A stretch of 64,000 nucleotides of DNA, taken from positions 5,517,501 to 5,581,500 of the forward strand of contig NC_022247.1 in the NCBI RefSeq assembly GCF_000463015.1, given 5' to 3'. Both the position numbers and the translations under genes were made by a program. Origin of the DNA: Variovorax paradoxus B4. Its GTDB lineage: Bacteria; Pseudomonadota; Gammaproteobacteria; Burkholderiales; Burkholderiaceae_C. The notes under the pieces are model-generated. The model searched no databases. It worked only from the letters and a program-made list of their open reading frames with translations, and was not told the DNA's origin. This document shows, piece after piece, positions 15,527-54,980 of the stretch (positions are counted from its first letter, which is position 1; each line of letters opens with the position of its first letter).

Positions 15527-15529
15527 ATA

Positions 15530-15630
15530 GGCTCGCCCCCAGTCTTCGCGCACTTCGTGTCGCTTCGCCCACCCCCTACCGGGGGCAACACCAGCGGCCC
15601 GGCAAAGCCGGTTCCGCGGTGTTTCTGGAA
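15530..15630. repeat. Dispersed structured intergenic repeat, copy A
   Basis: One of four related ~100-bp elements in the window, here inverted relative to the other three. Read on the minus strand it holds an imperfect palindrome whose inner stem is CCGGC/GCCGG. A second hairpin CCCCC-GGTA-GGGGG and the conserved tail GACACGAAGTGCGCGAAG follow. It fills the space between the convergent SDR and DUF3597 genes, beginning 3 bases after the SDR stop. A bidirectional terminator or mRNA 3'-end stabiliser is the simplest reading. Confidence 0.85.
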
Positions 15631-15660
15631 ATGGCCTTTTCCGGCAGAAGCCGTCTTTAG

Positions 15661-16041
15661 CTAGTCGCGCAGTTCTGCCGGCACCTTGCCGCCGTTGGCG
15701 GCCAGCTTGGTCATGACCTGGCGATGCAGCCAGATGTTCATCTTGGCGCTGTCGCTGGTGTCGGCGCCGTAGCTCAGTTCGGCGGCGAGCTGCTTGCGCG
15801 CATCGAGGCTGCTGTCGAGGCCGAGGAGTTTCATCAGGTCGACGATGGACGTGCGCCAGTTCAGGCTGCTCGCGCCGGGCATGCCGTCGAGCAGGGCCTC
15901 GACGTCCACCACCGTGATGGCGGGCGGCGGTGCCGCGGCGGCGGGTGCGCCTGCGGGCGCCGCAGCTGCCGGAGCAGCAGGTGCGGGGGCGGCGTTTGCG
16001 GAAGGGAAAATCTTGGAAAGGATGCTGCCGAAAATGCTCAT
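15661..16041 (-). CDS. DUF3597 family protein
   Basis: A 126-residue protein whose C-terminal half matches the DUF3597 family: VEALLDGMPGASSLNWRTSI, DLMKLLGLDSS and a KMNIWLHRQVMTKLAANGG end. The N-terminus MSIFGSILSKIF is followed by an alanine/proline linker (about residues 15-42). No biochemical role is known to me. The ATG at 16041 is chosen over the frame extending to 16122 because the family starts with MSIFG. It converges on the SDR gene across repeat copy A. Confidence 0.85.
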   Translation of the reverse strand: MSIFGSILSKIFPSANAAPAPAAPAAAAPAGAPAAAAPPPAITVVDVEALLDGMPGASSLNWRTSIVDLMKLLGLDSSLDARKQLAAELSYGADTSDSAKMNIWLHRQVMTKLAANGGKVPAELRD

Positions 16042-16134
16042 GCTTCTGCTCCGTCGAGGTTGATGGCTGAAAACCGCGGCAGCGCGCGTGCGTGCCGCAG
16101 CCGACGGTTGTAGCACGCGCATGCGGCGGCGCCG

Positions 16135-17256
16135 CTACACGGCCGGCTTCAGCGGTCCGCCGGGCGTGAACGAATCCACAGACTCGGAAACCGATCCGCC
16201 AGCCGCCAGCTGCGGCACGTGCGGCGCAGCGGATGTACCGCAGGCATGGCAGAACTTCGAGAACGCGCTCTTGCGCGTCTCGCACTGGCCGCAATGGTCG
16301 AACAGGCCGATGCCGCAGTGCGGGCAGAAGTCGATCTCGTCGTTCTTCAGGTCCACCGGGCGTTCGCAGCCGGGGCACACGCCCTTGCCGAGCCGCGCGA
16401 GCGCGACGTCGTAGCTGAGCTCCTCGCGCCGGACCTGGTCGGGCTGCTGCTCGGCGAGCTTCTGGCGCGCGAGGTAGGCGTTGAGCGCAACGATCGCATA
16501 GCGGCCCACGAGCACCGTGACCAGAATGCCCACCACGTAGCGCACATAGCCGCCGTAGCTCGGCAGGTAGGGCACCAGCTCGACGAAGAAGGCGAACAGC
16601 GCGAAGAAGATGAAGCCCCAGACGAAGGGCCAGTAGGTGCTCTTTCGCTTTTTCGCGAACAGCCAGCCGGCCACGATCAGAAGCGGCAGCGTGAGCGCAA
16701 GGCGGTAGGCGAACACGCGCAGCTCGACCCGGCGGTACTCGGCGTCGAGTTTTTCCCGAGCATCGCGCTCCAGCAGCGACAGCGCCTCGCGGGCGCGCTG
16801 CTCGGCCTGCCGCGCGTCGAGCACGATCTGCTGCTGCGCATTCACCTGGCGCTGGACCTCGTCTTCCTTCTGCTTGAAGGCATCGAGCGCCTTGGTGCGT
16901 GCGATCAGCTCCGTGTCCTGGTCGGGCTGCGCGGTGGCGCGCCGCGTGGCGATCCAGTTGCCGAAGGTCTCGCGGGCGTTGGCGCTCGCCTGCCGCGCGG
17001 CGCTCTGCTGCAGGCGGACCTGCTCCAGCTGCCGTGTCGCCTGCAGCTCGGTAGCCTCCGACGCCTTGATGGTGCTGCGCAGCGGCTCGGCCGCGGGGCG
17101 GTCGATGAAGTCATCGAGCTCGAGCGCCCGTTCGACCTGCGGCAGGTCGTCCACGATGGCGCCGCCGAGCCCGATCAGGAAGCTCGCGAACGCCAGCGCC
17201 ACGAGCCAGAGGCCGCGGCGAAACCATTTTTCGGACAGACGCAATGACTTGCTCAT
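16135..17256 (-). CDS. Membrane protein with coiled coil and C-terminal zinc ribbon
   Basis: A 373-residue protein with one N-terminal transmembrane segment (about residues 15-33). A long charged coiled coil follows (about 55-185, rich in Q, R, E and A), then two or three further membrane segments (about 190-260). A zinc ribbon makes up the rest: CPGCERP, CPHCG, CGQC and CHACG. Similar proteins are annotated only as zinc-ribbon domain proteins, so no function is assigned. It is 28 bases downstream of the DUF2145 gene on the same strand and may be co-transcribed with it. Confidence 0.75.
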   Translation of the reverse strand: MSKSLRLSEKWFRRGLWLVALAFASFLIGLGGAIVDDLPQVERALELDDFIDRPAAEPLRSTIKASEATELQATRQLEQVRLQQSAARQASANARETFGNWIATRRATAQPDQDTELIARTKALDAFKQKEDEVQRQVNAQQQIVLDARQAEQRAREALSLLERDAREKLDAEYRRVELRVFAYRLALTLPLLIVAGWLFAKKRKSTYWPFVWGFIFFALFAFFVELVPYLPSYGGYVRYVVGILVTVLVGRYAIVALNAYLARQKLAEQQPDQVRREELSYDVALARLGKGVCPGCERPVDLKNDEIDFCPHCGIGLFDHCGQCETRKSAFSKFCHACGTSAAPHVPQLAAGGSVSESVDSFTPGGPLKPAV

Positions 17257-17284
17257 TTCATTCTTTCGGTGAGAGAGGGATTTC

Positions 17285-18082
17285 TTATTGCAGCTTGAAT
17301 GCCACCGGCGCCGCGCCGAGCCCCGCGCGCGGCATCCACGCGAACACCGAGTCGACCGTCACCGTCTCGATGCGGTCCGAGAACCGCTTGTCGTTCGGAT
17401 GGTCGTCGAAGGCCACGCTGGCCGAGCCCACGCGGCCGCCCAGGCGAGTGAGCGGGCCGAGCCGCAATGTGGTCGGCTCGTAGCCCTTGAACTGCATCCA
17501 CGCCTGCGCCTGCGCGCGGCTGCCGATGGTGGCGGGCTCCATCGCCGCGGCCAGCGTCTCGACCGCCCACTGGTTCGACTGCTGGTACTTCTGGCCCCAG
17601 GCGTAGCTCACGATGCTGTAGGGCGCGATGTTCAGCCGCACGATGCGCGCAGGCGGCTCGTGGAGCGCGGCCAGCAGCTGCGCCTGCACGGCAGGCGCAG
17701 GCACGACCCAGGCAGCCTCGTAGCGCCACAGGTCGTCGAGGAAGAACTCTCCGAGCCCCTGGCGGTAGACCGCGGCGACGGCGGTGCCGCACCGGTTGAG
17801 CTTGTGCACCACGCGCCATGGCCCCTCGTCGGTCTTGTAGGCGATGCCCAGGTGCGAATAGCGCAGGCCGTACTTGCCCAGGTCCTGCCCGGCGCGCGCC
17901 AGCAGCACGACGCGCGCGCCGCCGGCATCGAGCTGCTGCGAGGTGCGCTCCGCCAGCTGCATGCCCTTGACGATCAGTTCGGCGGTCGGCCTGGCCTGCT
18001 CGCAGGAGCGGCCGGCCAGCGCCTGCAGCGGCAGCGCCACCGCGAGCGCAAGCAGGAGCGCAGGGAAGACCGCGCGCTTCAC
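17285..18082 (-). CDS. DUF2145 family exported protein
   Basis: A 265-residue protein with a clear Sec signal (hydrophobic residues about 5-22, cleavage near LAG-RS) and the DUF2145 segments YSHLGIAYKT, HKLNRCG and YSIVSYAWGQKYQQSNQW. The family is found in proteobacterial envelopes and its activity is unknown to me. The conserved His and Cys could mark a papain-like (NlpC/P60-like) fold, which is speculation. Start is GTG at 18082, overlapping the stop of the upstream small secreted protein (GTGA). Confidence 0.8.
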   Translation of the reverse strand: MKRAVFPALLLALAVALPLQALAGRSCEQARPTAELIVKGMQLAERTSQQLDAGGARVVLLARAGQDLGKYGLRYSHLGIAYKTDEGPWRVVHKLNRCGTAVAAVYRQGLGEFFLDDLWRYEAAWVVPAPAVQAQLLAALHEPPARIVRLNIAPYSIVSYAWGQKYQQSNQWAVETLAAAMEPATIGSRAQAQAWMQFKGYEPTTLRLGPLTRLGGRVGSASVAFDDHPNDKRFSDRIETVTVDSVFAWMPRAGLGAAPVAFKLQ

Positions 18083-18536
18083 GACAGCCTCTCGTTGTGC
18101 AGCAGCGCGCGGCCGATGGCATTGGGCACGAAGGCCAGCACCTCGCCCGCGGCCGACAGCACGACGCCGCTGCCGATCACGCTGACCAGGACGCCCGTGC
18201 CCACCGCCGCCGACACGCCGTTGGCGGCGCGTCCCATCACCTTGACGCTGGCACGCGCACCATCCGACGCGCGCGCCAGCAGGTAGACGGTGCCATCGGC
18301 CGAGGCCTCGACCGCCACCACCGTGAGCATCGAGCCACCCACCGAGAGCGCGGCAGGCAGCGCAACCACGGCCGTGGCAGAGGCGCCCACCGCCGAAGCG
18401 GCACCCACGACCGAGGCCACCGGCAGCAGCGAGAGTGCGGCCGAAGCCTCGCTCTGCGCCTGGGCATGAAGGGGCAGCGCGGCACCCGCGAACGCGGTGC
18501 AGGCGGCGATCAGAAGCGCAGCAACGGATTTTTCAT
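18079..18536 (-). CDS. Small secreted protein with apparent frameshift in its start
   Basis: The long open frame (to codon 18535-18537) encodes a signal-peptide-like run KSVAALLIAACTAFAGAALP, then an LHAQA cleavage-like site and a glycine/alanine/valine-rich mature domain. It lacks any in-frame ATG, GTG or TTG ahead of the signal. The only plausible ATG (18534-18536) opens in another frame and stops after eight codons. One extra A in the five-A tract following the ATG would give a normal MKKSVAALL start. I therefore read it as a one-base deletion (real or sequencing), with the downstream gene coupled by GTGA overlap. Function is unknown. Confidence 0.6.
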
Positions 18537-18577
18537 GACGGTCTTTCGTGGGTTGATGATGAAGAAGAAGGCGGCGC

Positions 18578-19081
18578 TCATTCGGCCGAGCCGGCAGCCG
18601 CGGCTTCCTGGCGGGCGGCGCGGCAGCCTTGCAGCCGCGCTTCGATCAGGTCGGCCTCGTGGCGGTCGCGCAGGGTCTTGGCCAGCGTGAAGGCCGAGCT
18701 GATCAGGAACAGCCAGCTCACGCCCAGGAAGGCCTTGTAGGCGTCGTTGATCTCCATGCGGACCAGCCCCCAGCCGGTCAGGCCCATCGCGGTGAAGAAG
18801 CTGCCCCAGACCACCAGGCGCCACATCGGCACGTCGCGGCCCGCCGTGCCGCCGGCGCCCGCGTGCTGGCTGTCGCGCACGAACTTGGCCAGCATGAAGG
18901 CGGTGCTGAGGCAGAACACATAGCCCATCACCATGAACGCACGGTCCAGCGCCTCGCCCGGCAGCCAGCTCAGGCCGGTGGCGCACAGGAACACGGCGAT
19001 CCCGAAGGAAGCCCAGGCCTGGAACTGCCAGGCCCGCGTATCGCGCTGGATCGAAACGGTGGTGGACGGGAAGGGTTGCAT
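18578..19081 (-). CDS. YiaA/YiaB-family inner membrane protein
   Basis: A 167-residue membrane protein with two repeats of the YiaA/B two-helix domain. One has helices at about residues 19-35 and 45-65, the other at about 88-105 and 115-135. Each repeat has the pattern of a tryptophan-rich first helix followed by an STAFMLAK or SSAFTLAK motif. The family is of unknown function in E. coli. The ATG at 19081 is used because the additional upstream codons are not membrane-like. It lies 41 bases upstream of the frameshifted secreted-protein gene. Confidence 0.8.
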   Translation of the reverse strand: MQPFPSTTVSIQRDTRAWQFQAWASFGIAVFLCATGLSWLPGEALDRAFMVMGYVFCLSTAFMLAKFVRDSQHAGAGGTAGRDVPMWRLVVWGSFFTAMGLTGWGLVRMEINDAYKAFLGVSWLFLISSAFTLAKTLRDRHEADLIEARLQGCRAARQEAAAAGSAE

Positions 19082-19229
19082 GAGTGCCTCGCGGCGTAGT
19101 GAAGGTGAGCGAATGATGGTTCGCTCCCGCACCGCGGGACTCGAATGCTTCGACCAGTTCCGGTTTGAGCCGCTGCGGGTATCTCGAAGAGATACTTTCC
19201 GGCACCTTGCGCGCCGGAAAAGCCGCGCC

Positions 19230-21188
19230 TTACGCGGCCAGCAATCCGCTCACGCGCTGCTGCAGCGCCTCCGGCCGCACCTCGACCGGCGGCACGGCAT
19301 GGCCGACATGGAGCCCCACGCGGCTGAAGAAGCCGCGGCGAAAGGGCTTGGCCATGGCCACGTTCTCGCCGCCGCGCAGCTCGATGCGGCTGAAGTACGA
19401 GCCCCAGAGGTTGGTCAGCGCCATCGGGATCACCGGCGGCTCGATGCCTTCGGCGCGCGCGCTTTCGATGATCTTCATCACGCCGCCCTTGAAGGGCTGC
19501 AGCTGGCCGTCGCGCGTGATGGCACCCTCGGGGAAGATGGCCAGCAGGTCGCCTTCGCGCAGCACGCCCAGCGCCCTGGCAAAGGCCGCTTCGTAGGCCG
19601 CCGGGTCTTCCTTCTGCGGCGCGATGGGAATCGCCTTGGCCAGCCTGAACAGCCAGCCGAGCACCGGCACCTTGAAGATCCGGTGGTCCATGATGAAGCG
19701 GATCGGACGCGGGCTTGCGGCCATCAGCAATATCGCGTCGATGAAACTCACGTGGTTGCACACCAGCACCGCGGCGCCTTCGGTGGGAATGTGCTCGTCG
19801 CCCTTGATCTCGAAGCGGTAGACGAAGTGCGACAGCATCCACGCGATGAAGCGCAGCAGGTATTCCGGCACCAGCATGAAGATGTAGAACGCCACCACGG
19901 CGTTGGCAATGCCGGTGAACAGGAAGATCTGCGGAATCGTGAAGCCGGCGCCGAGCAATGCACCCGCGATGACCGAGCTGCCGATCATGAACAGCGCATT
20001 GAGGATGTTGTTGGCCGCGATGATGCGCGCGCGGTGCGTGGGCTGGCTGCGCAGCTGGATCAGCGCGTACATCGGCACGCTGTAAAGCCCCGCGAAGAGC
20101 GACAGCAGCGCCAGGTCGGCCATCACGCGCCAGTGCGCGGCCTGGCCCACGAAGGCGCCCAGCCCCATGACCGCCACCGGCGGCAGCGCACGCGACGCAA
20201 AGTACAGGTCGATGGCGAACACGCTCATGCCGATGGCGCCCAGCGGCACCAGGCCGATCTCCACCTGCCGGCGGCTCAGCGTCTCGCACAGCAGCGAGCC
20301 CACCCCGATGCCCACCGAGAACACCACCAGCAGCAGCGAGGCCACCTGCTCGTCGCCGTGCAGCACTTCCTTCGCGAAGCTGGGGAACTGGCTCAGGAAC
20401 ACCGCGCCGAAGAACCACATCCACGAGATGCCCAGGAGCGAGCGGAACACCACGATGTTGCCGTGCGCGAGCTGGAGGTTGCGCCAGGTCTCGCTGAACG
20501 GGTTCCAGTTGATCACCAGCCCCGGGTCGGTGGCAGGCGCCCGCGGAATGGCCTGGGCCACGCCGCGCCCGACCAGTGCCAGCAGCACGCAGGCCACCGC
20601 CACCGTGGCGTGGCCGACCTGCGGCAGCGCCACCAGCAGCCCGCCCGCGACCTGCCCGAGCAGGATGGCGACGAAGGTGCCCATCTCGACCATGCCGTTG
20701 CCGCCCGTGAGCTCGCGCGCGTCGAGCACCTGCGGCAGGTAGGCGAACTTGACCGGGCCGAACAGCGTGGAATGCAGGCCCATGAGGAACACGCAGCCCA
20801 GCAGCACCACCGCATCGGCCGTGACGAAACCCCAGGCCGCGAGCAGCATGATCGCGATCTCGAGGTTCTTGACGAAGCGGATCATCTTCGTCTTGTCGAA
20901 CTTGTCGGTGAGCTGCCCCGCCGTGGCGGAGAACAGCAGGAACGGCAGGATGAACAGCGCGCCGATGGCCAGGCCCGCCATGGCCGGCGGCATCCAGCTC
21001 AGCTGGAGCTGGTAGGTCACCATGACGGTGAAGGCGAACTTGAAGAGGTTGTCGTTCGCCGCGCCCGCGAACTGGGTCCAGAAGAAGGGCGCGAAGCGCC
21101 GCTGCTTGAGAAGGGCGAACTGGTTGGCGTGGGCGTTCGCTTCGTGGGGCGCGGTGGCGGCAGTGGCAGCAGCGGCGGGGGTTGTCAT
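19230..21188 (-). CDS. MFS lysophospholipid transporter fused to 1-acyl-glycerol-3-phosphate acyltransferase
   Basis: A 652-residue fusion. Residues about 20-430 form an LplT-like major facilitator with 12 membrane segments (FWTQFAGAANDNLFKFAF at the start). Residues about 470-652 are a PlsC acyltransferase with NHVSFID (about 478-484, the HxxxxD catalytic box) and FPEG (about 552-555). By analogy to LplT plus Aas it would import lysophospholipid and re-acylate it, but the acyl-ACP synthetase domain of Aas is missing. Of two ATGs, 21188 is favoured because AGGAG is nine bases upstream; the ATG at 21197 abuts it. Confidence 0.87.
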   Translation of the reverse strand: MTTPAAAATAATAPHEANAHANQFALLKQRRFAPFFWTQFAGAANDNLFKFAFTVMVTYQLQLSWMPPAMAGLAIGALFILPFLLFSATAGQLTDKFDKTKMIRFVKNLEIAIMLLAAWGFVTADAVVLLGCVFLMGLHSTLFGPVKFAYLPQVLDARELTGGNGMVEMGTFVAILLGQVAGGLLVALPQVGHATVAVACVLLALVGRGVAQAIPRAPATDPGLVINWNPFSETWRNLQLAHGNIVVFRSLLGISWMWFFGAVFLSQFPSFAKEVLHGDEQVASLLLVVFSVGIGVGSLLCETLSRRQVEIGLVPLGAIGMSVFAIDLYFASRALPPVAVMGLGAFVGQAAHWRVMADLALLSLFAGLYSVPMYALIQLRSQPTHRARIIAANNILNALFMIGSSVIAGALLGAGFTIPQIFLFTGIANAVVAFYIFMLVPEYLLRFIAWMLSHFVYRFEIKGDEHIPTEGAAVLVCNHVSFIDAILLMAASPRPIRFIMDHRIFKVPVLGWLFRLAKAIPIAPQKEDPAAYEAAFARALGVLREGDLLAIFPEGAITRDGQLQPFKGGVMKIIESARAEGIEPPVIPMALTNLWGSYFSRIELRGGENVAMAKPFRRGFFSRVGLHVGHAVPPVEVRPEALQQRVSGLLAA

Positions 21189-21230
21189 TCGGAACATCTC
21201 CTCTTGTTATCTACACACACTGTCCCCGCT

Positions 21231-21333
21231 TCTTCGTGGAACACCGCGGAACCGGCTCTGCCGGGCCGCAGGTGTTGCCCCCGGTAGGGGGTTGGCGCAG
21301 CGACACGAAGTGCGCGAAGACGGGGGGCGAGCC
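21231..21333. repeat. Dispersed structured intergenic repeat, copy B
   Basis: Second of four related elements, in plus orientation. It has outer arms AACACC/GGTGTT, middle CGG/CCG, inner CCGGC-TCT-GCCGG, then CCCCC-GGTA-GGGGG and the GACACGAAGTG tail. The opening TTCGTG can also pair with CACGAA near the far end. It ends 10 bases from the stop of the ceramidase-like gene and lies upstream of the MFS-acyltransferase start. Confidence 0.85.
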
Positions 21334-21343
21334 TATGTCATCC

Positions 21344-22201
21344 TCATGCCGTCATTGCGGCTGCGTCGGGATTGTGCCGCAGCAGGGTCGCGCGCCAGTT
21401 CATGTCGAGCTTGCGCAGCGCCGCCAGCACCGGCAGGCCCGCCAGCGATGCGGTCAGGTGCTTGAGGGTGTGTCCGGACACCACCTGCTGCGTCGCCTCG
21501 TAGATCGCGTGGTCCGCCAGCTCGAAGGCCTTGGCCAATGCATAGAAGCAGATCACCCAGCCCAGCTTGAGCCCGACCGCGCCGCGCATCGGCGCGGCCA
21601 GCGCGAGCGTGAGCACCAGCGCCATGCCGCCGAACTGCACGATGGCCCAGGGCAGCACGTTGCCGCTTTCCTGGAACACCTCCGCCGAGAGCAATCCGGC
21701 CATCAGCACGAACCAGGCGGCCGGCCAGCCGGCGCGCTGGCTCACGCGCTCGCAGACCGCAATGCCGATCAGCCCCGCGAAGGCCACCGCCATGCCGGCG
21801 CGGTCGGCCGCGAGCCGGGCGCCGTCGGGCATCAGGTGGAAGAAGGCCGATCCCGCGGCGGTGGCGACCAGCCCCGCGAAGAAGAGCCAGGCGCAGTCGA
21901 GCGTGTTGTCCGGCGGATCGTTGGCCGGCGGCGCCAGCGGGAACTGGGCCAGTGCTTCCTGGTGGGCCCGGTCGATCCGGTTGAGCCGGTACAGGCCCCA
22001 GAAACCGATCAGCACGAAGGGCAGGTTGCTCAGGACGTCCATGGCGTTGGGCAGGCCGTGCCAGCTTCGGTCGTCGGCGAACACCGAGGCAATGGCCACG
22101 TCGGCCGCCGGCAGCGCCGGGCCGAACAGGGCCACCAGCGCGAGCAGCGCGAAGGTGAAGAGCAATCCGCGCTCGCGGCGGCTGAGGGTGGGCAAAGGCA
22201 T
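21344..22201 (-). CDS. Ceramidase-family integral membrane protein
   Basis: A 285-residue protein with about seven membrane segments. It carries the CREST/ceramidase residues: GSAFFHLMPD (Ser, His and Asp of the metal site) and a C-terminal SGHTLKHLTASL with two His. Such proteins are zinc amidohydrolases or related hydrolases of the alkaline-ceramidase family. The substrate in a bacterium is uncertain and ceramidase activity is not implied with confidence. It precedes the MFS-acyltransferase gene on the same strand, separated by repeat copy B, which may limit readthrough. Confidence 0.78.
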   Translation of the reverse strand: MPLPTLSRRERGLLFTFALLALVALFGPALPAADVAIASVFADDRSWHGLPNAMDVLSNLPFVLIGFWGLYRLNRIDRAHQEALAQFPLAPPANDPPDNTLDCAWLFFAGLVATAAGSAFFHLMPDGARLAADRAGMAVAFAGLIGIAVCERVSQRAGWPAAWFVLMAGLLSAEVFQESGNVLPWAIVQFGGMALVLTLALAAPMRGAVGLKLGWVICFYALAKAFELADHAIYEATQQVVSGHTLKHLTASLAGLPVLAALRKLDMNWRATLLRHNPDAAAMTA

Positions 22202-22300
22202 GGCGGTCCTCGGTGGTGGGTGGGTACGAGCCGCGGAATTTAGTTGCCAGTCTCTCTACAGGCATCGAGAATCGATACGAGGCACTAATTCACACCTTTC

Positions 22301-22319
22301 GGTATCCTTTTTTAATACC
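22301..22319. promoter_or_regulatory. Inverted repeat upstream of XRE regulator
   Basis: GGTAT (22301-22305) and ATACC (22315-22319) form inverted arms around a T-rich nine-base spacer, 23 bases before the regulator start codon. This could be an autoregulatory operator of the helix-turn-helix protein. The arms are short, so chance is possible. Confidence 0.3.
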
Positions 22320-22342
22320 TCCTTCCTCACAACCACGCCGCC

Positions 22343-23077
22343 ATGAGTACCACCGTCGACCTCGTCCAAGCCCTCAAGAACGAACTCAAGAGCGCCCGCA
22401 TGACCTACGCCGACCTGGCGCGCTCGCTCGACATGGCCGAATCCAGCGTGAAGCGCATGCTGGCCAAGAGCGACATGCCGCTGTCGCGCGTCGACGCGAT
22501 CTGCCGTGCGCTCAAGATCGACTTCGCCGAGCTGGCGCGCCGCGTCGCCGACGCCCAGCCGCTCCTGAAGGAGCTCACGCAGGAGCAGGAAAAGGCGGTG
22601 GTCAAGGACAAGAAGCTGCTGCTGGTGGCCATCAGCGTGCTGAGCCAGTGGACGCTGGAACAGATCGTGGCGGCCTACCGGATCAGCGAGGCCGAGTGCA
22701 TCGGCTGCCTGGCACAGCTGGACCGCATCGGCATCATCGAGCTGCGCCCGCTGAACCGCTACCGGCTGAAGCTGGCCAAGACCTTCCGCTGGCGGCCGCA
22801 TGGCCCGGTGATGGAGTTCTTCCGCGAGAACGTGGTGCTCGACTACTACGCGGGCGGCTTCGACGGCCCGGCCGAGGGGCTGCTGCTGGTGCACGGGCAG
22901 ATCAGCCGCTCGCTCGCGCCCGCGTTCCTCGAACGCCTGCAGCGCGTGGCGCAGGACTTTGCGCAGCAGCACCAGACCGACCAGAAGCTGGCCGCCAAGG
23001 ACCGCGAGGGCTACACGCTGCTGCTGGGCATGCGCAACTGGGAATTCGAGGCCTTCACCAGGCTGCGCCGCGCCTGA
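22343..23077 (+). CDS. XRE-family helix-turn-helix transcriptional regulator
   Basis: A 244-residue protein with an N-terminal helix-turn-helix (MTYADLARSLDMAESSVKRM, about residues 20-39). A roughly 170-residue C-terminal part of no recognised domain follows, containing LEQIVAAYRISEAECIGCL and a possible second winged-helix (LAQLDRIGIIELRPLNRYRL). Similar architectures are annotated as transcriptional regulators in Burkholderiales. The target is unknown. A GGTAT inverted repeat just upstream is a candidate operator. It converges with pyrF over a 12-base gap. Confidence 0.83.
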   Translation: MSTTVDLVQALKNELKSARMTYADLARSLDMAESSVKRMLAKSDMPLSRVDAICRALKIDFAELARRVADAQPLLKELTQEQEKAVVKDKKLLLVAISVLSQWTLEQIVAAYRISEAECIGCLAQLDRIGIIELRPLNRYRLKLAKTFRWRPHGPVMEFFRENVVLDYYAGGFDGPAEGLLLVHGQISRSLAPAFLERLQRVAQDFAQQHQTDQKLAAKDREGYTLLLGMRNWEFEAFTRLRRA

Positions 23078-23089
23078 CCCACAGGGTTC

Positions 23090-23914: not shown

Positions 23915-23946
23915 GGGGTCGATTTTAAGGACCCGCCCGCCGCGCC

Positions 23947-31670: not shown

Positions 31671-31774
31671 TATTCCAGGAATGCCGTGGAACCGGCTACG
31701 CCGGGCCACTGGCACTGTCCCCTGCAAGGGGGTGGGCGAAGCGACACGAAGTGGGCGAAGCCTGGGGGTTAGCC
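31671..31774. repeat. Dispersed structured intergenic repeat, copy C
   Basis: Third copy, plus orientation, and the most diverged. Outer arms are TGCC/GGCA instead of AACACC/GGTGTT, middle TGG/CCA instead of CGG/CCG, the inner stem CCGGC-TAC-GCCGG is kept, and the second hairpin is CCCCT-GCA-AGGGG. These are pairwise compensatory changes relative to the other copies. Its right end supplies the TAA stop of sua5 (31769-31771). It lies between convergent genes. Confidence 0.8.
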
Positions 31775-32770
31775 CATTGAAGCGCGATGAAGGCGGTCGC
31801 GCACGCCTTCCCATTCGGGCGTGTCGGGCGGCGTCTCGACCCAGATCAGCTTGACGCCCTGCGCATCGAACTCGCGCAGCACCGCGAACAGCTGGTGCGC
31901 GCTCGCCACCGCGTCGTCCGGCATGCGCCGCTGCAGCACGCGCTGGGAATGGCTGCGCACCTCGGCGCGCGTCCACACCGCAATGTGGGCCGCACCCGGG
32001 CCGAGCACGTCGAGGCCGGCCTGGATGGCCTTGGCATCCATCAGCCGCAGCTTGGCGTTCGGCGCGTAGTGCGCTTCCAGCGTGCCGGAGGCGCGCGGAT
32101 CGGGCGTTTCGAGCACCTCGCGGTCGCTCAGGCGCTCGCCCGCGGCGGCCTCGATCTGCGCGCGCGTGATCAGGCCCGGACGCAGCAGCACGGGCGCGCC
32201 GCGGCTGCAGTCGACGATGGTCGACTCGATGCCCACCTCGCAGGCGCCGCCGTCGATCACCGGCAGCGCATCGCCGAACTCGTCGTGCACGTGCTGCGCG
32301 GTGGTGGGACTGACGCGGCCGAAACGGTTGGCGCTCGGGCCCGCGAGCCCCGGCACGCCCTGCTCGGCGCAGGCCTCGAGCAGGGCCTGCGCGACCGGAT
32401 GCGAGGGGCAGCGCAGACCGATGGTGTCCTGCCCGCCGGCGGCCGCGGCCGCCACGCCGGGCTGGCGCGTGACGATCAGCGTCAGCGGACCGGGCCAGAA
32501 GGCCTGCACCAGCTTCTGCGCAAAGGGCGGCAACGGCTGCGCGAAGCGCGACAGCGCCTCGGTGCCCTTGATGCCGGCCGCGACGTGGACGATCAGCGGA
32601 TGGTCGGCCGGCCGGCCCTTGGCCTTGAAGATGCCGCCTACCGCCATGTCGCTGGTGGCATCGGCGCCCAGTCCATAGACGGTCTCGGTCGGGAACGCGA
32701 CCAGCCCGCCCGCGCGCAGCACGCGCACGGCCTCGGCAATGGCTTCGGGGGATTGGCCGTCGAGGATCAT
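31769..32770 (-). CDS. tsaC: L-threonylcarbamoyladenylate synthase (Sua5/TsaC)
   Basis: Makes threonylcarbamoyl-AMP from threonine, bicarbonate and ATP, the first step to t6A in tRNA. The 333-residue protein has the YrdC core (VAFPTETVYGLGADA near residues 25-39, GPSANRFGRVSPTTA, IESTIVDCSRG) plus a C-terminal Sua5 domain, so it is the long Sua5 type rather than the short TsaC. The ATG overlaps the purK stop (ATGA). The final codons and stop lie within repeat copy C. Confidence 0.94.
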   Translation of the reverse strand: MILDGQSPEAIAEAVRVLRAGGLVAFPTETVYGLGADATSDMAVGGIFKAKGRPADHPLIVHVAAGIKGTEALSRFAQPLPPFAQKLVQAFWPGPLTLIVTRQPGVAAAAAGGQDTIGLRCPSHPVAQALLEACAEQGVPGLAGPSANRFGRVSPTTAQHVHDEFGDALPVIDGGACEVGIESTIVDCSRGAPVLLRPGLITRAQIEAAAGERLSDREVLETPDPRASGTLEAHYAPNAKLRLMDAKAIQAGLDVLGPGAAHIAVWTRAEVRSHSQRVLQRRMPDDAVASAHQLFAVLREFDAQGVKLIWVETPPDTPEWEGVRDRLHRASMG

Positions 32771-45368: not shown

Positions 45369-45375
45369 AAGAGAC

Positions 45376-48202: not shown

Positions 48203-48242
48203 CCTGAACAGATTTCAAAACAAGCAACGGAGACAAGAGACG

Positions 48243-49214
48243 ATGAAGCGAATGATTCCCCTGCTGGCCGCGGCCCTCGCGCTGGCCACCCCCTTCGCAT
48301 CGGCGCAGCCCGCCGCCTACCCGGGCCAGCCGGTCAAATGGATCGTGCCCTACGTGGCCGGCGGCGGCACCGACAACCTGGCGCGCTCGCTGGCCGAGGC
48401 GATGCAGCCGTCGCTCGGGCAGCCGCTCGTCATCGACAACCGGCCCGGCGCGTCGACCAACATCGGCGTCTCGGTGCTGATGCAGGCCAAGCCCGACGGC
48501 TACACCATCATGCAGGCCGAGAACGCGGCACTGCTCTTCAACGAGCACATGTTCGCCAAGCTGCCCTACAAGCCCGCGAGCGACTTCACCTACATCGGCG
48601 CCATCGGCCGCTTTCCCGTGGCGCTGGTGGTGCATCCCGACTTTCCCGCCAAGAACGTGGCCGAGTTCGTGCGCTACGTGAAGGCCAACCCGGAGAAGGT
48701 GAGCTATGCGTCGCCCGGCAACGGCTCGCCGCACCACATGGCGATGGAACTCTTCAAGCAGAAGGCTGGCCTGACCATCACGCACGTGCCGTACAAGGGT
48801 GCCGCGCCCGCCATGACCGACGTGATGGGCGGCCAGGTGCCCACGATGATGCTCGACCTGGCCTCGGGCTTGCCGATCATCAAGGCGGGCAAGGTGCGGG
48901 TGCTGGCCATCGCGCTGCCGCAGCGCGCGAGCGCACTGCCCGAGGTGCCCACGTTCGTCGAAGCCGGCTTCAGCGACGTCAACGCCTATGCGTTCCACGG
49001 CCTGATCGGCCCGGCCGGCATGCCGCCCGAAGCGGTGGCGCGCATCAACGGCGAACTGCACAAGGCGATGAAGGCACCGAAGGTGGTGAAGCTGTTCTCG
49101 GAGTTCGGCTTCGAAGCCCTGCCGGGCACGCCGCAGGATTTCTACAAGCTCTCGCGGGCCGAGAGCGATCGCTGGGGCAAGATCATCGCGGCCGCCGGCG
49201 TCAAGCTGGACTGA
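48243..49214 (+). CDS. Bug-family (tripartite tricarboxylate) substrate-binding protein
   Basis: A 323-residue periplasmic receptor with a signal peptide (hydrophobic residues about 6-21, cleavage SAQ-PA) and Bug signatures YPGQPVKWIVPYVAGGGTDN, GKPLVIDNRPGA-like (GQPLVIDNRPGA), ASPGNGSPHHMA and HVPYKGAAPA. Bug proteins bind carboxylates or aromatic acids, usually without an adjacent transporter. As last gene of the catabolic-type operon it probably senses or delivers the pathway's substrate. Confidence 0.9.
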   Translation: MKRMIPLLAAALALATPFASAQPAAYPGQPVKWIVPYVAGGGTDNLARSLAEAMQPSLGQPLVIDNRPGASTNIGVSVLMQAKPDGYTIMQAENAALLFNEHMFAKLPYKPASDFTYIGAIGRFPVALVVHPDFPAKNVAEFVRYVKANPEKVSYASPGNGSPHHMAMELFKQKAGLTITHVPYKGAAPAMTDVMGGQVPTMMLDLASGLPIIKAGKVRVLAIALPQRASALPEVPTFVEAGFSDVNAYAFHGLIGPAGMPPEAVARINGELHKAMKAPKVVKLFSEFGFEALPGTPQDFYKLSRAESDRWGKIIAAAGVKLD

Positions 49215-49241
49215 AAGGAAAGGTCCGGCGGCAGCCGTCGG

Positions 49242-49580
49242 CTACCAGCCCAGGCCGAGGTGCAGGGGCAGGTACACCGCCATGCCCGCCAGCATCGTGC
49301 CGAGCACGCCGCGCCGCCAGTAGTAATAGGCAGCGCCGACCACGGCCGCATACAGGCGCGCGTCGTGCAGCGTGGTGATCAGGTGGCCCTGGGTCATCAC
49401 GATCTCGGGCGCGATCACGCCCGCCAGCGCGGCGGCCGGCGCATAGTGCAGCGCGCGGTGCGCCCACTCCGGCAGGCCCCAGGGCCGGTCGAGGATGAAG
49501 AAGAAGCAGCGCGTGAGCACCGTGACCGCGGCCAGCCCGACGATCACGCCCATCGTCCACAGATCGGTGATGCCGCTCAT
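49242..49580 (-). CDS. azlD: AzlD-family branched-chain amino-acid exporter subunit
   Basis: A 112-residue inner-membrane protein with three to four hydrophobic segments and the AzlD pattern (VGLAAVTVLTRCFFFILDRP, ending LPLHLGLGW). AzlC and AzlD together export branched-chain or neutral amino acids. It overlaps azlC by four bases. It is convergent with the Bug gene. Confidence 0.87.
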   Translation of the reverse strand: MSGITDLWTMGVIVGLAAVTVLTRCFFFILDRPWGLPEWAHRALHYAPAAALAGVIAPEIVMTQGHLITTLHDARLYAAVVGAAYYYWRRGVLGTMLAGMAVYLPLHLGLGW

Positions 49581-50317
49581 TTGTCGTCCTCCGCGTCGGG
49601 GTCGAGCCCGAACTGCTTCTCGAGCCAGAAGCACAGCAGCACCGCGGCGCCAATGGCCACGACGATGTTGAGCTTGAGCGGCAAGGCATGGGCCGCCACC
49701 GCGGTGGCGCCGGCGATCAGCGCGGCCAGCACGCGCAGCCGCGTGGTGGCCATCGAGCAGACGATCGCCACCAGGCTCAGCACGCCGGCAAAACCCAGGC
49801 CCCAGTTCTGCGGAATGAAATTGGCCAGCGCGATGCCCAGGAGGCTCATGCCCATCCAGGAGCACCAGGTCACGAAGTAGTTGCCGGTGAGGTAGGCCTC
49901 TTGCGACTGCTGCTCGGCGAGGGTGGCCGGCGGTGCCGCGTACTGCCTGGTGAAGAGCGCGTAGCTCAGGTCGGCCGTCAGGTACCCGTGCGTCATGCGG
50001 CGCCAGCGCGGCATGTGCATGAGGTAGGGCCGCAGATGCAGGCTGAAGACCACGAAGCGCAGGTTGACGCAAAAGCCCGTGGCCAGGATCACCCACGCCG
50101 GCGCGCCCGCGAACAGCAGCGGAATGGCCGCGAGCTGGGAGCTGCCGGCGTAGACCAGCAGCGTCATGGCCACCGACTCCAGCACGCTCATGTTCGACTT
50201 GACCATGGCCACGCCGGTCATCAGGCCCCAGGCGCCGATGCCCAGCGCGGCCGAGGACATGTCGCGGATGCCGGCGCGGAATTCGGGGCGGCGGCGGATG
50301 GCCGGGGAAAAGAACAT
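49577..50317 (-). CDS. azlC: AzlC-family branched-chain amino-acid exporter subunit
   Basis: A 246-residue membrane protein with six or seven hydrophobic helices and AzlC signatures (PLLVYAGSSQLAA-like LLVYAGSSQLAAIPLLFAGA, NLRFVVFSLHLRPYL). It pairs with azlD. The ATG at 50317 touches the fmt stop (TGATG), so it is coupled to the def-fmt operon. A longer frame upstream is the fmt gene in another phase. Confidence 0.88.
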   Translation of the reverse strand: MFFSPAIRRRPEFRAGIRDMSSAALGIGAWGLMTGVAMVKSNMSVLESVAMTLLVYAGSSQLAAIPLLFAGAPAWVILATGFCVNLRFVVFSLHLRPYLMHMPRWRRMTHGYLTADLSYALFTRQYAAPPATLAEQQSQEAYLTGNYFVTWCSWMGMSLLGIALANFIPQNWGLGFAGVLSLVAIVCSMATTRLRVLAALIAGATAVAAHALPLKLNIVVAIGAAVLLCFWLEKQFGLDPDAEDDK

Positions 50318-51270
50318 CAGCCGAACAGCTGCCCGGGCTTCAGCTCGAAGCCGCGCAGGAAGTCGGCCACGGCCAGGCGCTTGCCGCCGGGCCGCTGGAG
50401 TTCGGTGAGCATCACCGCCGAGCCGGCCGCCGCCACCGCAATGCCGGCTTCGGTCACGGCCAGCAGGGTGCCCGGCGCGGCCGAGGCCTCGGCCGGCACC
50501 GCGTGCGCGGCCCAGAGCTTGATGGTCTCGCCGTCGAGCGGGCTGTTGGCGCCCGGAAACGGGTCGAAGGCCCGGATCCGCCGCACGATCGCGGCGGCGG
50601 GCTGGTTCCAGTCGACCTGGGCTTCGTGCTTCTCGACCTTGCTGGCGTAGGTGACACCTTCGACCGGTTGCGGCGTACGCGTGAGGCGGCCGATGTCGGC
50701 CAGCGCCTGGACGATCATCCGGCCGCCCAGCTCGGCCAGGCGGTCGTGCAGCCGCGCGGTGTTGTCGCTGCCGATGTCGACGGCTTCGCGCAGCAGCATG
50801 TCGCCGGTGTCGAGGCCGGCGTCCATCTGCATGATGGTGATGCCGGTCTGCGCGTCGCCGGCCTCGATGGCGCGGTGGATGGGCGCCGCGCCGCGCCAGC
50901 GCGGCAGCAGGCTGGCGTGGATGTTGAGGCAGCCGTGCGCCGGCAGGTCGAGCACCCATTGCGGCAGGATGAGGCCGTAGGCCGCCACCACCATCACGTC
51001 GGGCCTGGCCGCCAGCAGCGACTCGCGCGCGGCGGCGGCGTCTTCCGGGTACTTGCCGTCCAGCCGCAGGCTGCGCGGCTGCGCCACCGGCCAGCCGTGG
51101 GCGGCGGCGCATTGCTTGACGGGCGAGGCCTGCAGCTTCATGCCGCGGCCCGCGGGCCGGTCGGGCTGGCTCAGCACCAGCGCGATCTCATGGCCGGCGG
51201 CGGCAATGGCTTCGAGCGCGACGCGCGCGAACTCGGGCGTGCCCGCGAAAACGACCTTCAGCGGGGTCAA
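50317..51270 (-). CDS. fmt: Methionyl-tRNA formyltransferase
   Basis: Fmt formylates initiator Met-tRNA using 10-formyl-tetrahydrofolate. The 317-residue product has [15 protein letters not shown] at the start, [19 protein letters not shown] and DTGDMLL in the catalytic domain, and a C-terminal OB-fold. Start is TTG at 51270, overlapping the upstream stop (TTGA); no in-frame ATG precedes the conserved KVVF. def lies two genes upstream, so formylation and deformylation are co-encoded. Confidence 0.95.
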
Positions 51271-51767
51271 TCGCGGATCCGATCGAGTGCGAGGTCGTCC
51301 CCCGTGTGATAGCGGCGGACCACGCCGGTGGGGTCGATGTAGATATAGAGCATGCGGCGCTCGTTCACCGCCTTGTAGCGCCAGGTCCAGACCACGCCGT
51401 CGAACGAGCTGACGCGGCTGGTTTCAAAAGGCCGGCCATAGAAGGCGAGCACGTCGTTCTGGCGCCACTGGTCGACCTTGATGTCGTGGCCGAAGCGCGC
51501 CTCGCTGAGCACCTGGGTCACGGAAACGACCTTGCCGGAGGCATCGACGTCGATGTCGGTGACCTCGAAGCCCGCCGGCATGCGCGAATACTGGAGGCGT
51601 TCGCCGCCGCCGGTGAGCGGGTAGCGGCCCGTGGGCGCGCCCAGGCGCTGCAGGGTTTCGGCGGCGGTGGTGCCGGGAACGATGCGCGTGGGTTCGCTGG
51701 CGCAGCCCGCCAGCAGCAGCCCGGCGGCAAGACCGAGTGCCCAGGACCGCAGGGAGGGCACTTTCAT
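51267..51767 (-). CDS. SmpA/OmlA-like outer-membrane lipoprotein
   Basis: A 166-residue lipoprotein with lipobox LLLAGC (Cys22) and a SmpA/OmlA-type domain (about residues 35-155) typified by [19 protein letters not shown] and a C-terminal [19 protein letters not shown]. It is BamE-like, but true BamE is usually near 110-120 residues, so another member of the superfamily is as likely. It overlaps def upstream and fmt downstream by four bases. Confidence 0.8.
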
Positions 51768-52285
51768 GCCCGGCCCTCTTTGGCTTCTTCACGCTGCTGC
51801 TTGAGCAGCTTGCTCTTGATGCGGTTGCGCTTGAGCGGCGACAGGTATTCGACGAACACCTTGCCCAGCAGGTGGTCGAGCTCGTGCTGGATGCACACGG
51901 CCAGCAGGCCTTCGGCCTCGATGGTGCGCAGTTCGCCGTTCTCGTCCAGCGCCTGGGCCTTGACCGAGGTGGAGCGCATGACGCCGTCGTAGATGCCGGG
52001 CACCGAGAGGCAGCCCTCTTCGTTCAACACCTTTTCGTCGCTTGCCCAGATAATTTCGGGGTTGATGAGCACCAGCGGCTCGTTGCGCTCCTCGGACACG
52101 TCGATGACGACCAGCCGCTCGTGCACGTCGACCTGGGTCGCGGCCAGGCCGATGCCGCTGGCGTCGTACATGGTCTCGAGCATGTCGGCCACCAGGGCCT
52201 TGATGCGCGCATCGACGCCCTGCACGGGCTTGGCCACCGTGTGCAGGCGCTTGTCCGGGTAACTCAGAATGATTCGTTTGGCCAT
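51764..52285 (-). CDS. def: Peptide deformylase
   Basis: Removes the formyl group from nascent N-terminal methionine. The 173-residue product has all three motifs: GIGLAATQV (about residues 44-52), EGCLSVP (Cys92) and QHELDHLLG with zinc ligands His134 and His138 and catalytic Glu135. It is first in the def-lipoprotein-fmt-azlC-azlD minus-strand series and diverges from the LysM gene. Confidence 0.96.
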
Positions 52286-52445
52286 GAAACAGGGAGAAAG
52301 TTGTGGCTATTTTCGCCAATTCCGCGACGCGGCGAGTCCGGATCGCCTGAAAACGTTGCCCTCCAAAGGGCTTCGGGCGCAGAATTCGTAGCAAATTGTG
52401 AGATTCGTATGTGTGCCGATACGTGGCACGCTCACCCATTCAGAC

Positions 52446-53666
52446 ATGAAAAAGCTCCGAATCACTGTCCGCCAGCGCCCGCATCTTTTCGCCACGTTGG
52501 CAGCCCTTGCGGTGATAAGCGGCGGCACGACCACTGCGGCGTGGGCGCAGAACTATCCCGTCACGCCGCAGCAGCGCGCCACCGCCCAGCAAACCGCCCA
52601 GAACGGCGTTCCGCTGAGCGAACTGGCGCCCAACGCGCCGGACGAATACACGGTCAAGCCCGGCGACACGCTGTGGGCCATCTCGCGCCTCTACCTGCTG
52701 CGCCCCTGGCGCTGGCCGGAACTGTGGGGCATGAACATCAGCGAAATCGCGAATCCGCACCGCATCTACCCGGGCCAGATCCTCTATCTGGACAAGACCG
52801 GCGGCCGTGCGCGCCTGACCATGCGCCGCGGCGCGGGCGGCAGCGCCGACGGCGGCACCATCAAGCTGTCGCCGCGCACGCGCTTCGATTCGCTGGCCGG
52901 CATGGCATTGCCCACGCTCAACCCGAGCCTCATCGAGCCCTTCCTCAGCGAACCGATCGTGGTGGATGCCGACACGCTGCAGGCCGCGCCGCGCATCGTC
53001 GCCGGCAACGACAGCCGGGTCCTGCTGTCGCGCGGCGACCGTGCCTATGCGCGCGGCAATGCGGAGACGCCGCTGCTCGAAACCCCGGGCCCGCTGAAGA
53101 ATTTCCGCGTGTTCCGCAACGCCACGCCGCTGAAGGACCCGGGAACCGGTGAAATCCTCGGCTATGAGGCGCAGTACCTGGGCAAGGCCCAGCTCAAGCG
53201 TGGCGAATCGACCACGGTCGAGACCACGGAAGACAAGGACGTCATCACCGTGGTGCCGGCCAGCATCGACATCATCGCGGCGCGCGAGGAAATCCGCGCC
53301 GGCGACCGCCTGCTGCCCGAACCGCCGCGCCAGCTGCTGAGCTATGTGCCGCGCGCCCCCTCCTCGCAGGTCGAGGGCCGCATCATCTCGGTCTATGGCA
53401 ACGCGGTGCAGTTCGCGGCCCAGAACCAGGTGGTGGCCATCAACAGGGGCACCCGCGACGGCATCGACAGCGGCCACGTGCTGGCCATCCTGAAGAACGG
53501 CGAAACCATTCTCGACCGGACCGGCGCGCGCAAGGAAACCATCAAGCTCCCCAACGAACGCATCGGCCTGCTGATGGTGTTCCGGCCGTTCGAAAAGGTT
53601 TCCTACGCACTGGTGCTCGAGATCACCGACACTCCGCGTGCGGGCGACTTCCTCGTCAATCCCTGA
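52446..53666 (+). CDS. LysM-domain periplasmic protein
   Basis: A 406-residue exported protein with a signal peptide (residues about 1-34, cleavage near AWA-Q). One LysM peptidoglycan-binding domain (about 67-116) opens EYTVKPGDTLWAISRLYLLR. The remaining 290 residues, conserved in Burkholderiales, form a domain I do not recognise beyond 'LysM peptidoglycan-binding protein'. It is 41 bases upstream of dprA on the same strand, as often seen in betaproteobacteria. Confidence 0.88.
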   Translation: MKKLRITVRQRPHLFATLAALAVISGGTTTAAWAQNYPVTPQQRATAQQTAQNGVPLSELAPNAPDEYTVKPGDTLWAISRLYLLRPWRWPELWGMNISEIANPHRIYPGQILYLDKTGGRARLTMRRGAGGSADGGTIKLSPRTRFDSLAGMALPTLNPSLIEPFLSEPIVVDADTLQAAPRIVAGNDSRVLLSRGDRAYARGNAETPLLETPGPLKNFRVFRNATPLKDPGTGEILGYEAQYLGKAQLKRGESTTVETTEDKDVITVVPASIDIIAAREEIRAGDRLLPEPPRQLLSYVPRAPSSQVEGRIISVYGNAVQFAAQNQVVAINRGTRDGIDSGHVLAILKNGETILDRTGARKETIKLPNERIGLLMVFRPFEKVSYALVLEITDTPRAGDFLVNP

Positions 53667-53707
53667 CGCTTTTCCTTTTTTTACCCGCTTTCTTTTTCCG
53701 CTTTCAT

Positions 53708-54856
53708 TTGGAACGAGCAGAACTCGCAGGCTGGCTGCGGCTTTCACTGACGCCGGGCATCGGCGATGGCGCCGCGCGCCGGCTGCTGGCGGCCTTCGGC
53801 CTGCCCGAGAACGTCTTTGCGCAGACGGGCGAGGCGCTGCGGCAGGTGGTGTCGCCGGCGCAGGCCGATGCCTTGCACCAGCCGCCCCAGGGTCTGCAGG
53901 CCCAGGTCGACCAGACCTGGCACTGGCTGCAGCCGGGCCACGGTGACGGCGCCACGCGCCGCCTGGTCACGCTGGGCGATGCGGCCTACCCTGCCTCGCT
54001 GCTCGAAATGGCCGACCCGCCGTTGATGCTCTACGTGCTCGGCGCCGCGGACTTCGACCTGACCCAGCTCGGCCACAGCATCGCGGTGGTGGGCAGCCGC
54101 AACCCCACGCCCCAGGGCGCGGCCAATGCCCGCGCCTTCGCGCGCGCGCTGGGCGACGCGGGCCTGCCGGTGGTGTCGGGGCTCGCGCTCGGCGTCGATG
54201 GCGCCGCGCACCAGGGCGCACTCGATGCGGCCGGCGACACGCCGCGGCTCGCCACGGTGGCCGTGGTGGGCACGGGCCTCGACCGCGTCTATCCCGCGCG
54301 GCACCGCGACCTGGCGCACCGCATCACGCTGCAGGGGCTGATCGTGAGCGAACTGCCGCTCGGCACGCCTCCGCTCACGCAGAATTTCCCGAAGCGCAAC
54401 CGCCTCATTGCCGGCCTGGCGCGCGGCACGCTGGTGGTCGAGGCCGCGCTGGCATCGGGCTCGCTGATCACCGCGCGGCTCACCTCGGAGCAAGGCAAGG
54501 AAGTGTTCGCCATTCCGGGCTCGATCCATTCGCCGCAGTCGCGCGGCTGCCATGCACTGATCCGGCAGGGCGCGAAGCTGGTCGAATCGGTCAACGACAT
54601 CCTCGAGCAGCTGCCGTCGCTGCACACGGGCAGCGCGGCAACGCCGGCTTCCGCGAACGGGAACGCCGGCGGCGCATCCGCTTGCGAAGACCCCTTGCTG
54701 GACGCCCTCGGCTTCGATCCCGTGAGTCTCGACGCCCTGAGCGCGCGCACCGGCTGGAGCGCCGCCGCGCTGCAGGCCAGGCTGCTCGAACTCGAGCTCG
54801 ACGGCCACGTCGCGCGCCTGCCCGGCGGCCTGTTTCAAAGAGCAGCCATCGGCTGA
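53708..54856 (+). CDS. dprA: DNA-processing protein DprA
   Basis: DprA loads RecA on incoming single-stranded DNA during natural transformation. The 382-residue product has an N-terminal SAM-like part, a Rossmann-like core with SIAVVGSRNPTPQGA (about residues 118-132), the GLALGVDGAAH and FPKRNRLIAGLA signatures, and a C-terminal winged helix (about 320-380). Start is TTG at 53708, with no closer ATG preserving the family N-terminus. Its 3' flank carries repeat copy D. Confidence 0.94.
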   Translation: MERAELAGWLRLSLTPGIGDGAARRLLAAFGLPENVFAQTGEALRQVVSPAQADALHQPPQGLQAQVDQTWHWLQPGHGDGATRRLVTLGDAAYPASLLEMADPPLMLYVLGAADFDLTQLGHSIAVVGSRNPTPQGAANARAFARALGDAGLPVVSGLALGVDGAAHQGALDAAGDTPRLATVAVVGTGLDRVYPARHRDLAHRITLQGLIVSELPLGTPPLTQNFPKRNRLIAGLARGTLVVEAALASGSLITARLTSEQGKEVFAIPGSIHSPQSRGCHALIRQGAKLVESVNDILEQLPSLHTGSAATPASANGNAGGASACEDPLLDALGFDPVSLDALSARTGWSAAALQARLLELELDGHVARLPGGLFQRAAIG

Positions 54857-54877
54857 CGCCCGGGCCCGCGCCCGCTT

Positions 54878-54980
54878 TTTCGTGAAACACCGCGGAACCG
54901 GCTTTGCCGGGCCGCGGGTGTTGCCCCCGGTAGGGGGTTGGCGCGCATGACACGAAGTGCACGAAGCCTGGGGGCGAGCC
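54878..54980. repeat. Dispersed structured intergenic repeat, copy D
   Basis: Fourth copy, plus orientation. AACACC/GGTGTT outer, CGG/CCG middle, inner CCGGC-TTT-GCCGG, then CCCCC-GGTA-GGGGG, GACACGAAGTG tail and the GGGGGCGAGCC end. It fills the gap between dprA and smg, starting 21 bases after the dprA stop and ending 26 before the smg start. Here the GAGCC end faces a start codon, unlike copies A-C where it abuts a stop. Confidence 0.85.

Follow-up and report, generated by a model that had tools for sequence, protein, structure and literature searches.

What kind of element is a structured repeat of about 100 bp that recurs at wide intervals along a bacterial chromosome, mostly hard against a stop codon, and does it do anything for the genes that it follows? 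The question is raised by a stretch of 64,000 nucleotides from Variovorax paradoxus B4 (the window; G000:C2:5517501-5581500 of a genome of 7,148,516 bases in two contigs of 1,353,255 and 5,795,261 bases), in which an earlier note had reported four related copies. All four were found at the places given there, shifted by about 3 nt at most: copy A at 15528..15630 (- strand), copy B at 21233..21335 (+), copy C at 31673..31776 (+) and copy D at 54879..54982 (+). The element is dispersed through the genome, is gained and lost, possesses a conserved fold and docks at stop codons. We lean towards regarding it as a non-autonomous mobile repeat of about 100 bp, similar to the repetitive extragenic palindromes (REPs) and likely the Comamonadaceae branch of the Beta-proteobacterial repeat element (BRE), that acts as a module of mRNA 3' ends; it probably shapes the tail of the mRNA.

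A covariance model built from the four window copies yielded 55 genome matches at E<=0.1, some of them partial and four of them forming two head-to-tail (tandem) pairs, so that the similarity of the four is not a mere chance resemblance. The core GGAACCGGCNNNGCCGGGCC occurs in 47 exact copies and, with up to two mismatches, in 71, compared with 34 for the backward-read pattern. Read in its own direction, the element consists of TTC, hairpin 1 (AACACC-GCGG-AA-CCGGC / GCCGG-G-CCGC-T-GGTGTT), hairpin 2 (CCCCC / GGGGG) and hairpin 3, which is built around CAC-GAA-GTG, followed by GGGGG and GAGCC. The GACACGAAGTG described earlier as a conserved tail is present, and is really the tip of this third hairpin. 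Three sub-types exist, type 2 having GCGGCT..AGCCGC and type 3 GCGCC-GAA-GGCGC as hairpin 3; four GCGCC-GAA-GGCGC copies without ACACGAAGTG (G000:C2:4853651, 1391206, 3286582 and 3939576; L079, L081, L082 and L083) may represent a separate sub-family. Just one of the 55 matches is situated on the smaller contig (binomial P 1.3e-4). Along the large contig the copies are densest at both ends (10 and 10 per 580 kb, versus 2-6 in the middle bins), perhaps reflecting an origin-to-terminus gradient.

Concerning the fold, the 55 matches were reduced to 51 alignment rows by removing four partial or truncated ones, and to 43 rows by removing eight more that were of type 3, had an extra base in hairpin 3 or had an odd hairpin 2. 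In these 43 copies 98.3% of the cells are paired, and 8 of the 26 pairs and 41 cells are altered on both sides; none of 500 shuffles reached the observed pairing, double-changed pairs or double-changed cells, and slid partners gave only 1-8 such cells. A distant set of 18 copies contains 23 double-changed cells in hairpins 1 and 2 (0/500 shuffles; slides 0-10), its number of changed pairs being reached by 29/500 shuffles. Hairpin 2 itself shows no double change in either set. Folding of single sequences indicates modest stability only (z from -0.60 to -2.32 on one strand and from -0.85 to -2.07 on the other), and the proof of the fold therefore rests on covariation and not on energy. The fold is real.

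Position is the strongest feature of the element. When it is read from the neighbouring gene, the stop codon is followed after 0-11 nt by CCCCC and then by hairpins 3, 2 and 1. A simple home-made gene caller places an opposite-strand gene on the side of this C run (the C5 end) at 48 of the 55 copies. With the two inner copies of tandem pairs omitted, the stop falls between -11 and +8 relative to the element end in 39 of 46 cases, and the opposite end is a median of 30 nt (convergent) or 47 nt (tandem) away from its neighbour. Because the caller was home-made, the stop test was repeated without it; a stop was counted if it fell at -14..+4 relative to the C run and closed a frame that is open over 80 codons or more. 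By this measure, docking is found in 43 of 53 own copies (2 of the 55 lack a C run; around 4-6% at shifted positions), and elsewhere in 24/36 copies from the genus, 16/18 from syntenic stretches, 24/31 from the family and 13/25 from the order search, compared with 3-9% for shifted positions; for the loci of named genomes it is 18/28 (two more lack a C run) versus 21/459 in the control. In one case, a RefSeq-annotated Variovorax plasmid, the annotated gene end coincides with the element end. The abutment of copies A-C on a stop codon at their GGCTCGCC end, reported from the window, thus extends to most copies of the genome, and the association with gene 3' ends is stronger than the earlier note had claimed. 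Neighbouring genes are convergent at 15 and divergent at 2 of the 55 copies, versus 30 and 26 of 177 sampled gene pairs.

Of 23 Bordetella petrii copies, 11 have an element end that reads TGAAGTGAAAG, which contains TGA in two frames, and four more have close variants of it. Within a wider window of -26..+4, 16 of the 23 (three of which are also counted among the named-genome loci) have a stop, versus 35/391; this count is softer because another palindrome precedes some of the copies. The palindrome, TCAGGC..GCCTGA with its middle in either orientation, stands directly before the C run at L421, L427, L429 and L433.

To follow gain and loss, 14 sites were compared across 80-kb syntenic stretches of five genus mates. 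One or more alignable genomes lack the element at 13 of these sites; at the fourteenth there were no anchors. A 6-nt gap between converging genes, TGAGCGGGCTCA, is identical in the own genome, G011 and G020 and shows one change in G004, and it is filled one way in G009 and the other way in G016. A gap of 3-12 nt near window position 23,080 is likewise filled in one orientation in G004 and in the other in G009 and G011. In these oppositely oriented fillings, the C run always points toward the stop of the gene behind which the element lies, as judged from stops identified by eye. One copy in G011 entered a coding end, the shortened gene of which now stops at a TGA inside the element end. In comparison with 1.27 Mb of G020, an orthologous site was available for 20 of the 55 own copies, 9 being shared and 11 not, and four full copies of G020 are absent from the own genome. 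Since even close relatives differ in the copies that they carry, the element must be mobile or subject to turnover, and its presence or absence at orthologous sites supports the REP-like spread proposed earlier. Clearly polarised gains are few (about seven, by reading of the site alignments), and for several sites either the filled or the empty version may be the older. At some of the empty sites, a short piece of the element is left next to the stop, which indicates that deletions happen as well. A hairpin 1 standing alone (58 bp), with the remainder of the element missing, was found at G020:C1:3009203.

Gaps of up to 15 nt account for 249 of 12,560 intergenic nt (around 2%) in the 177 gene pairs sampled from the genome. 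Random insertion plus selection, considered as the sole cause of the stop docking, is disfavoured by the insertions into such tiny gaps, but with so few clearly polarised gains it may still be sufficient. If the repeat lands repeatedly within a few bases of stops, even in gaps of a few nt between converging genes, either the insertion machinery senses gene ends or the selection on placement in the 3' untranslated region (UTR) is very strict, and both are testable because close relatives provide filled and empty versions of the same sites. At six of the 13 aligned sites, two tandem genes are packed closely in the empty version, with 7-15 nt from stop to start (starts by eye), whereas the filled version keeps the stop and adds the element and then a new leader of around 10-60 nt. 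From this arrangement one could imagine a portable 3' UTR that is mobile, in which insertion would be directed to the end of translation (e.g., by an RNA-based or ribosome-coupled route), would split compact operon-like pairs and would bring along a stop-proximal RNA module and a new leader; we consider this an unlikely elaboration.

A purely selfish REP-like element without host function, tolerated at gene 3' ends and keeping its fold for the mobilising enzyme, would account for the frequent gain and loss between close relatives and for the remnants left beside stop codons, and REPs are reported near the 3' ends of open reading frames (ORFs), where they can supply the stop codon (PMC3733652). 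Such an element would not need to maintain its stems once a copy is spent, whereas in 11 orthologous copy pairs stem positions differ at 22/568 and loop positions at 43/438, that is, 2.5 times less in stems than in loops. Settling in gaps of at most 15 nt, so small a share of the intergenic length sampled, also argues against it. Among 282 stem pairs compared in the 11 copy pairs, 18 differ, four of them by double changes that are still paired and three by single-side changes that are still paired. These differences favour, not strongly, selection on the fold in place. The selection on the fold that the earlier note had deduced is thereby supported by covariation in both copy sets and by the comparison of orthologues. 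We regard the purely selfish element as possible but doubtful.

Several observations weigh against a repeat that is maintained at gene ends for its structure. The number of further pair types in the 43-copy set was matched by 116/500 shuffles and that in the distant set by 358/500. Ten of the 53 own copies, copy D included, do not lie at a stop. The loop differences between orthologues are due in part to a shifted alignment in one pair. Since 11 of the 18 differing stem pairs leave at least one copy unpaired, the fold is only partially constrained; of the four double changes, three belong to copy C, where gene conversion could be their source. Finally, the element is often deleted, and for this reason no copy is shown to be needed.

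The role of a bidirectional intrinsic terminator, suggested in the earlier note, is not supported by the sequence. A T-run after hairpin 1 (>=5 T in 8 nt) is present in 0/52 copies, so that the element is no classical intrinsic terminator. A terminator-like site ends within the element in 1/52 copies and occurs within 110 nt after it in 6/52, versus 11/400 random windows; element-free gene ends have one in 4/62 convergent and 5/41 tandem cases. A terminator scan of 15400-21500 found none at copy A or copy B. At the locus of copy A, 18 orthologues outside the own genome were compared: G020 shares the element; G016, G017, G004, G018 and G014 carry in its place a terminator that is canonical by eye; G009, G010 and G011 combine a terminator with a complete or incomplete element at the other gene; and the remaining nine differ in their downstream sequence. 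The place of copy A, where five relatives have a hairpin-plus-T-run terminator, like the orientations of neighbouring genes given above, would fit an element that terminates transcription in both directions instead of intrinsic terminators, an idea that we nevertheless consider very unlikely in view of the T-run and scan results. Rho-dependent termination may take place at the element.

In view of the missing T-run and of the terminators standing in the place of copy A, we favour a module of the 3' UTR that, through its structure, would protect the mRNA or bring it to an end. Retained copies, mostly directly after a stop and in one orientation, would be transcribed as the start of the 3' UTR of that gene, and the resulting cluster of RNA hairpins might block exonucleases and separate the gene from what lies downstream, by analogy with the action on mRNA 3' ends that has been hypothesised for REP repeats (PMC3733652).

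That the copies are instead small RNA genes is suggested by Bordetella pertussis, where the bprJ1/bprJ2 transcripts run over a BRE (PMC3110155) and bprJ is altered in an RNase III mutant (PMC8386462). Here, the position of the element tracks the neighbouring stop codon. No promoter-like site was found in a scan of 15400-21500 (0.2 were expected by chance, so that this is weak), and Rfam gave no match on elements in the whole window at gathering scores, nor on the elements of copy A, L031, L199 and L216 at E<=1. An origin as small RNA genes thus appears extremely improbable.

For searches that spanned over 40 genomes the filters were stricter, and no more than 67 (genus) or 13 (family, order) candidates per genome were scored, such that the copy numbers are lower bounds. 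All 37 genomes of the genus, the own one included, carry the element, with at least 16 to at least 67 matches each, whereas none of 24 genomes from other families in the genus-level search does. At the family level, 213 of 299 sampled genomes and 114 of 141 genera are positive; at the order level, 15 of 300 genomes are, seven of them in three other families and some weakly. One of the families, f4, is probably that of Achromobacter and Bordetella, since the LexA of its member G429 is 91% identical to the LexA of these genera. A model of the f4 branch found copies in 14 of 24 named genomes, including Bordetella petrii (38 matches), Achromobacter insolitus (35), A. xylosoxidans (16) and Acidovorax sp. 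210-6 (11), and none in B. hinzii, Bordetella genomosp. 5 and 7, Bordetella sp. 02P26C-1 or in six genomes from five further genera. The element is rare on plasmids: eight of 72,556 plasmid records match copy A, and the named plasmids with the closest copies are from Variovorax; an f4 copy as query matched four records, two of them in common with the copy A search. Phage records gave no match with copy A as query.

The element is a known kind of repeat with an unusually exact docking at stop codons. Contrary to the earlier note, which did not recognise a named family, it is most likely the Comamonadaceae branch of BRE (Hot et al. 2011; PMC3110155), with which it agrees, by description, in taxa, size, tandem habit and position. 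BRE is described as a tandem, intergenic repeat of around 90 bp with slight ORF overlaps, its function being left open (PMC3110155). Its units in Bordetella measure 75-91 bp at a GC content of 63.7-78.9%, and copy numbers amount to 8-22 in Bordetella genomes, 29 in Polaromonas sp. JS666 and 13 in Delftia (PMC3110155). The resemblance comprises occurrence in Alcaligenaceae and Comamonadaceae, size, several to tens of copies, intergenic position, overlap of ORF ends by a few bases and tandem arrays of varying length (PMC3110155). Equally to BRE, our element is present in both families; six f4 copies measure 86-91 nt with 76-78% GC, and tandem copies occur in L199 (at 1502, 1588 and 1679), in L216 (four copies around 124 nt apart) and in the two tandem pairs of the own genome.

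There are also some differences from BRE: Copies in the own genome exceed it in length, most of them measuring 97-106 nt, and generally stand singly. B. hinzii, which lacks the element here, is a near relative of B. avium. For the latter, 8 BRE copies are reported (PMC3110155), and the absence from the former counts mildly against an identity of the two repeats. The section on BRE gives neither a fold nor a stop-codon rule, and a copy beside lexA is described for the B. pertussis group (PMC3110155); at 80 lexA loci, none of them a B. pertussis-group record, no copy was found at E<=0.01. Should the reading given here be true, it would provide a function and a target rule for the BRE family, which its discoverers left without one (PMC3110155).

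REPs with GTAG or CGTC tags are described as palindromes of 20-40 bp bearing a tag tetranucleotide (PMC3733652, PMC3686654); in the two families described they are mostly less than 20 bp away from ORF 3' ends, GTAG ends often supply a TAG stop, and Bordetellae are named among the hosts of untagged REP-like families (PMC3733652). Stop-hugging is therefore already known for REPs. The element resembles them as a short, palindromic and dispersed repeat between convergent or tandem genes near ORF 3' ends, whereas it differs in having three hairpins in around 100 bp, no GT(A/G)G foot before the palindrome and no linked RAYT gene that could be found. With miniature inverted-repeat transposable elements and other small mobile repeats (among those listed in PMC3110155: ERIC, NEMIS, BOX and RUP) it shares that it is non-autonomous, dispersed, gained and lost, whereas no terminal inverted repeats are seen by eye and no clear target duplication is found at the one clean empty site (copy D). 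A literature search, mostly of titles and abstracts, found no earlier report of exact stop docking for the family, of the three-hairpin fold with covariation or of a comparison of filled and empty sites; among the papers retrieved with sequence words, those listed look unrelated by title.

Concerning a possible mobiliser, exactly one Y1-type (RAYT-like, PF01797) transposase gene is present in 38 of 41 genus genomes; that of the own genome is situated at G000:C2:1332950-1333279 (L315, L386). Downstream of the gene, the four copies compared (L315-L318) exhibit similar sequence, a stretch of the type ATATGTCCC..CTGAC. No element copies were found beside the gene within 3-10 kb in the own genome, G025, G010, G029, G001 and G032, and no inverted repeat flanking it exceeded shuffles in the four tested. 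The three genus genomes without the gene, G035 (99% complete), G018 (89%) and G022 (88%), contain at least 19, 60 and 49 element matches, respectively. Thus, no link was found between the element and this single gene as the dedicated REP-type transposase that had been suggested; the Y1-type transposase may have been a past mobiliser. In the close inverted pairs L387 and L388, considered as an autonomous composite, no transposase was recognised by eye among the ORFs, on which no family search was made. A 'transposase' coding sequence over a plasmid match, with HTH_Tnp_1 (31.6 bits, cut-off 24.1), covers a degenerate copy and was taken as annotation overlap.

In the window itself, the C5 end of copy A points toward the stop TAA (15524-15526) of the + strand gene 14744-15526, and its stop-proximal CCCCC run (15536..15540, +) begins 9 nt past this stop. 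Hairpin 1 of copy A (stem AACACC-GCGG-CCGGC) lies at 15587..15623 (-; alignment columns 8-44), hairpin 2 (CCCCC-GGTA-GGGGG) at 15572..15585 (-; columns 46-60) and hairpin 3 (GCG-A-CAC-GAA-GTG-CGC) at 15548..15563 (-; columns 69-84); an orthologous copy exists in G020 and is absent from G016 and G004. Copy B (all on +: hairpin 1 at 21240..21276, hairpin 2 at 21278..21291, hairpin 3 at 21300..21315) has its C5 end toward the end of a - strand gene, at 21344 (TGA) or 21333 (TAG) depending on the frame, and its site in G020 is a 14-nt gap without the element.

In copy C (hairpins 1 to 3 at 31680..31716, 31718..31732 and 31741..31756, +), the stop TAA (31769-31771) of a - strand gene falls within the C5 end; the site is occupied in G011, too, and holds a remnant in G020. 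The paired changes reported earlier are present, this copy having TGG/CCA and TGCC/GGCA in hairpin 1; however, the full outer stem AATGCC/GGCACT has one A-C mismatch. Copy D (hairpins at 54886..54922, 54924..54937 and 54947..54962, +), the C5 end of which is not at a stop codon, constitutes a clean gain of 99 bp relative to the empty site of G020, both flanks being kept. It adds a paired change beyond those listed earlier, T-A for C-G in hairpin 3 (TGACACGAAGTGCA vs CGACACGAAGTGCG). Apart from the elements, an Rfam match to Bcj11 (Burkholderia RNA 11; 96.7 bits) lies at window 20361-20482 (-), within the long - strand reading frame 19230-21197.

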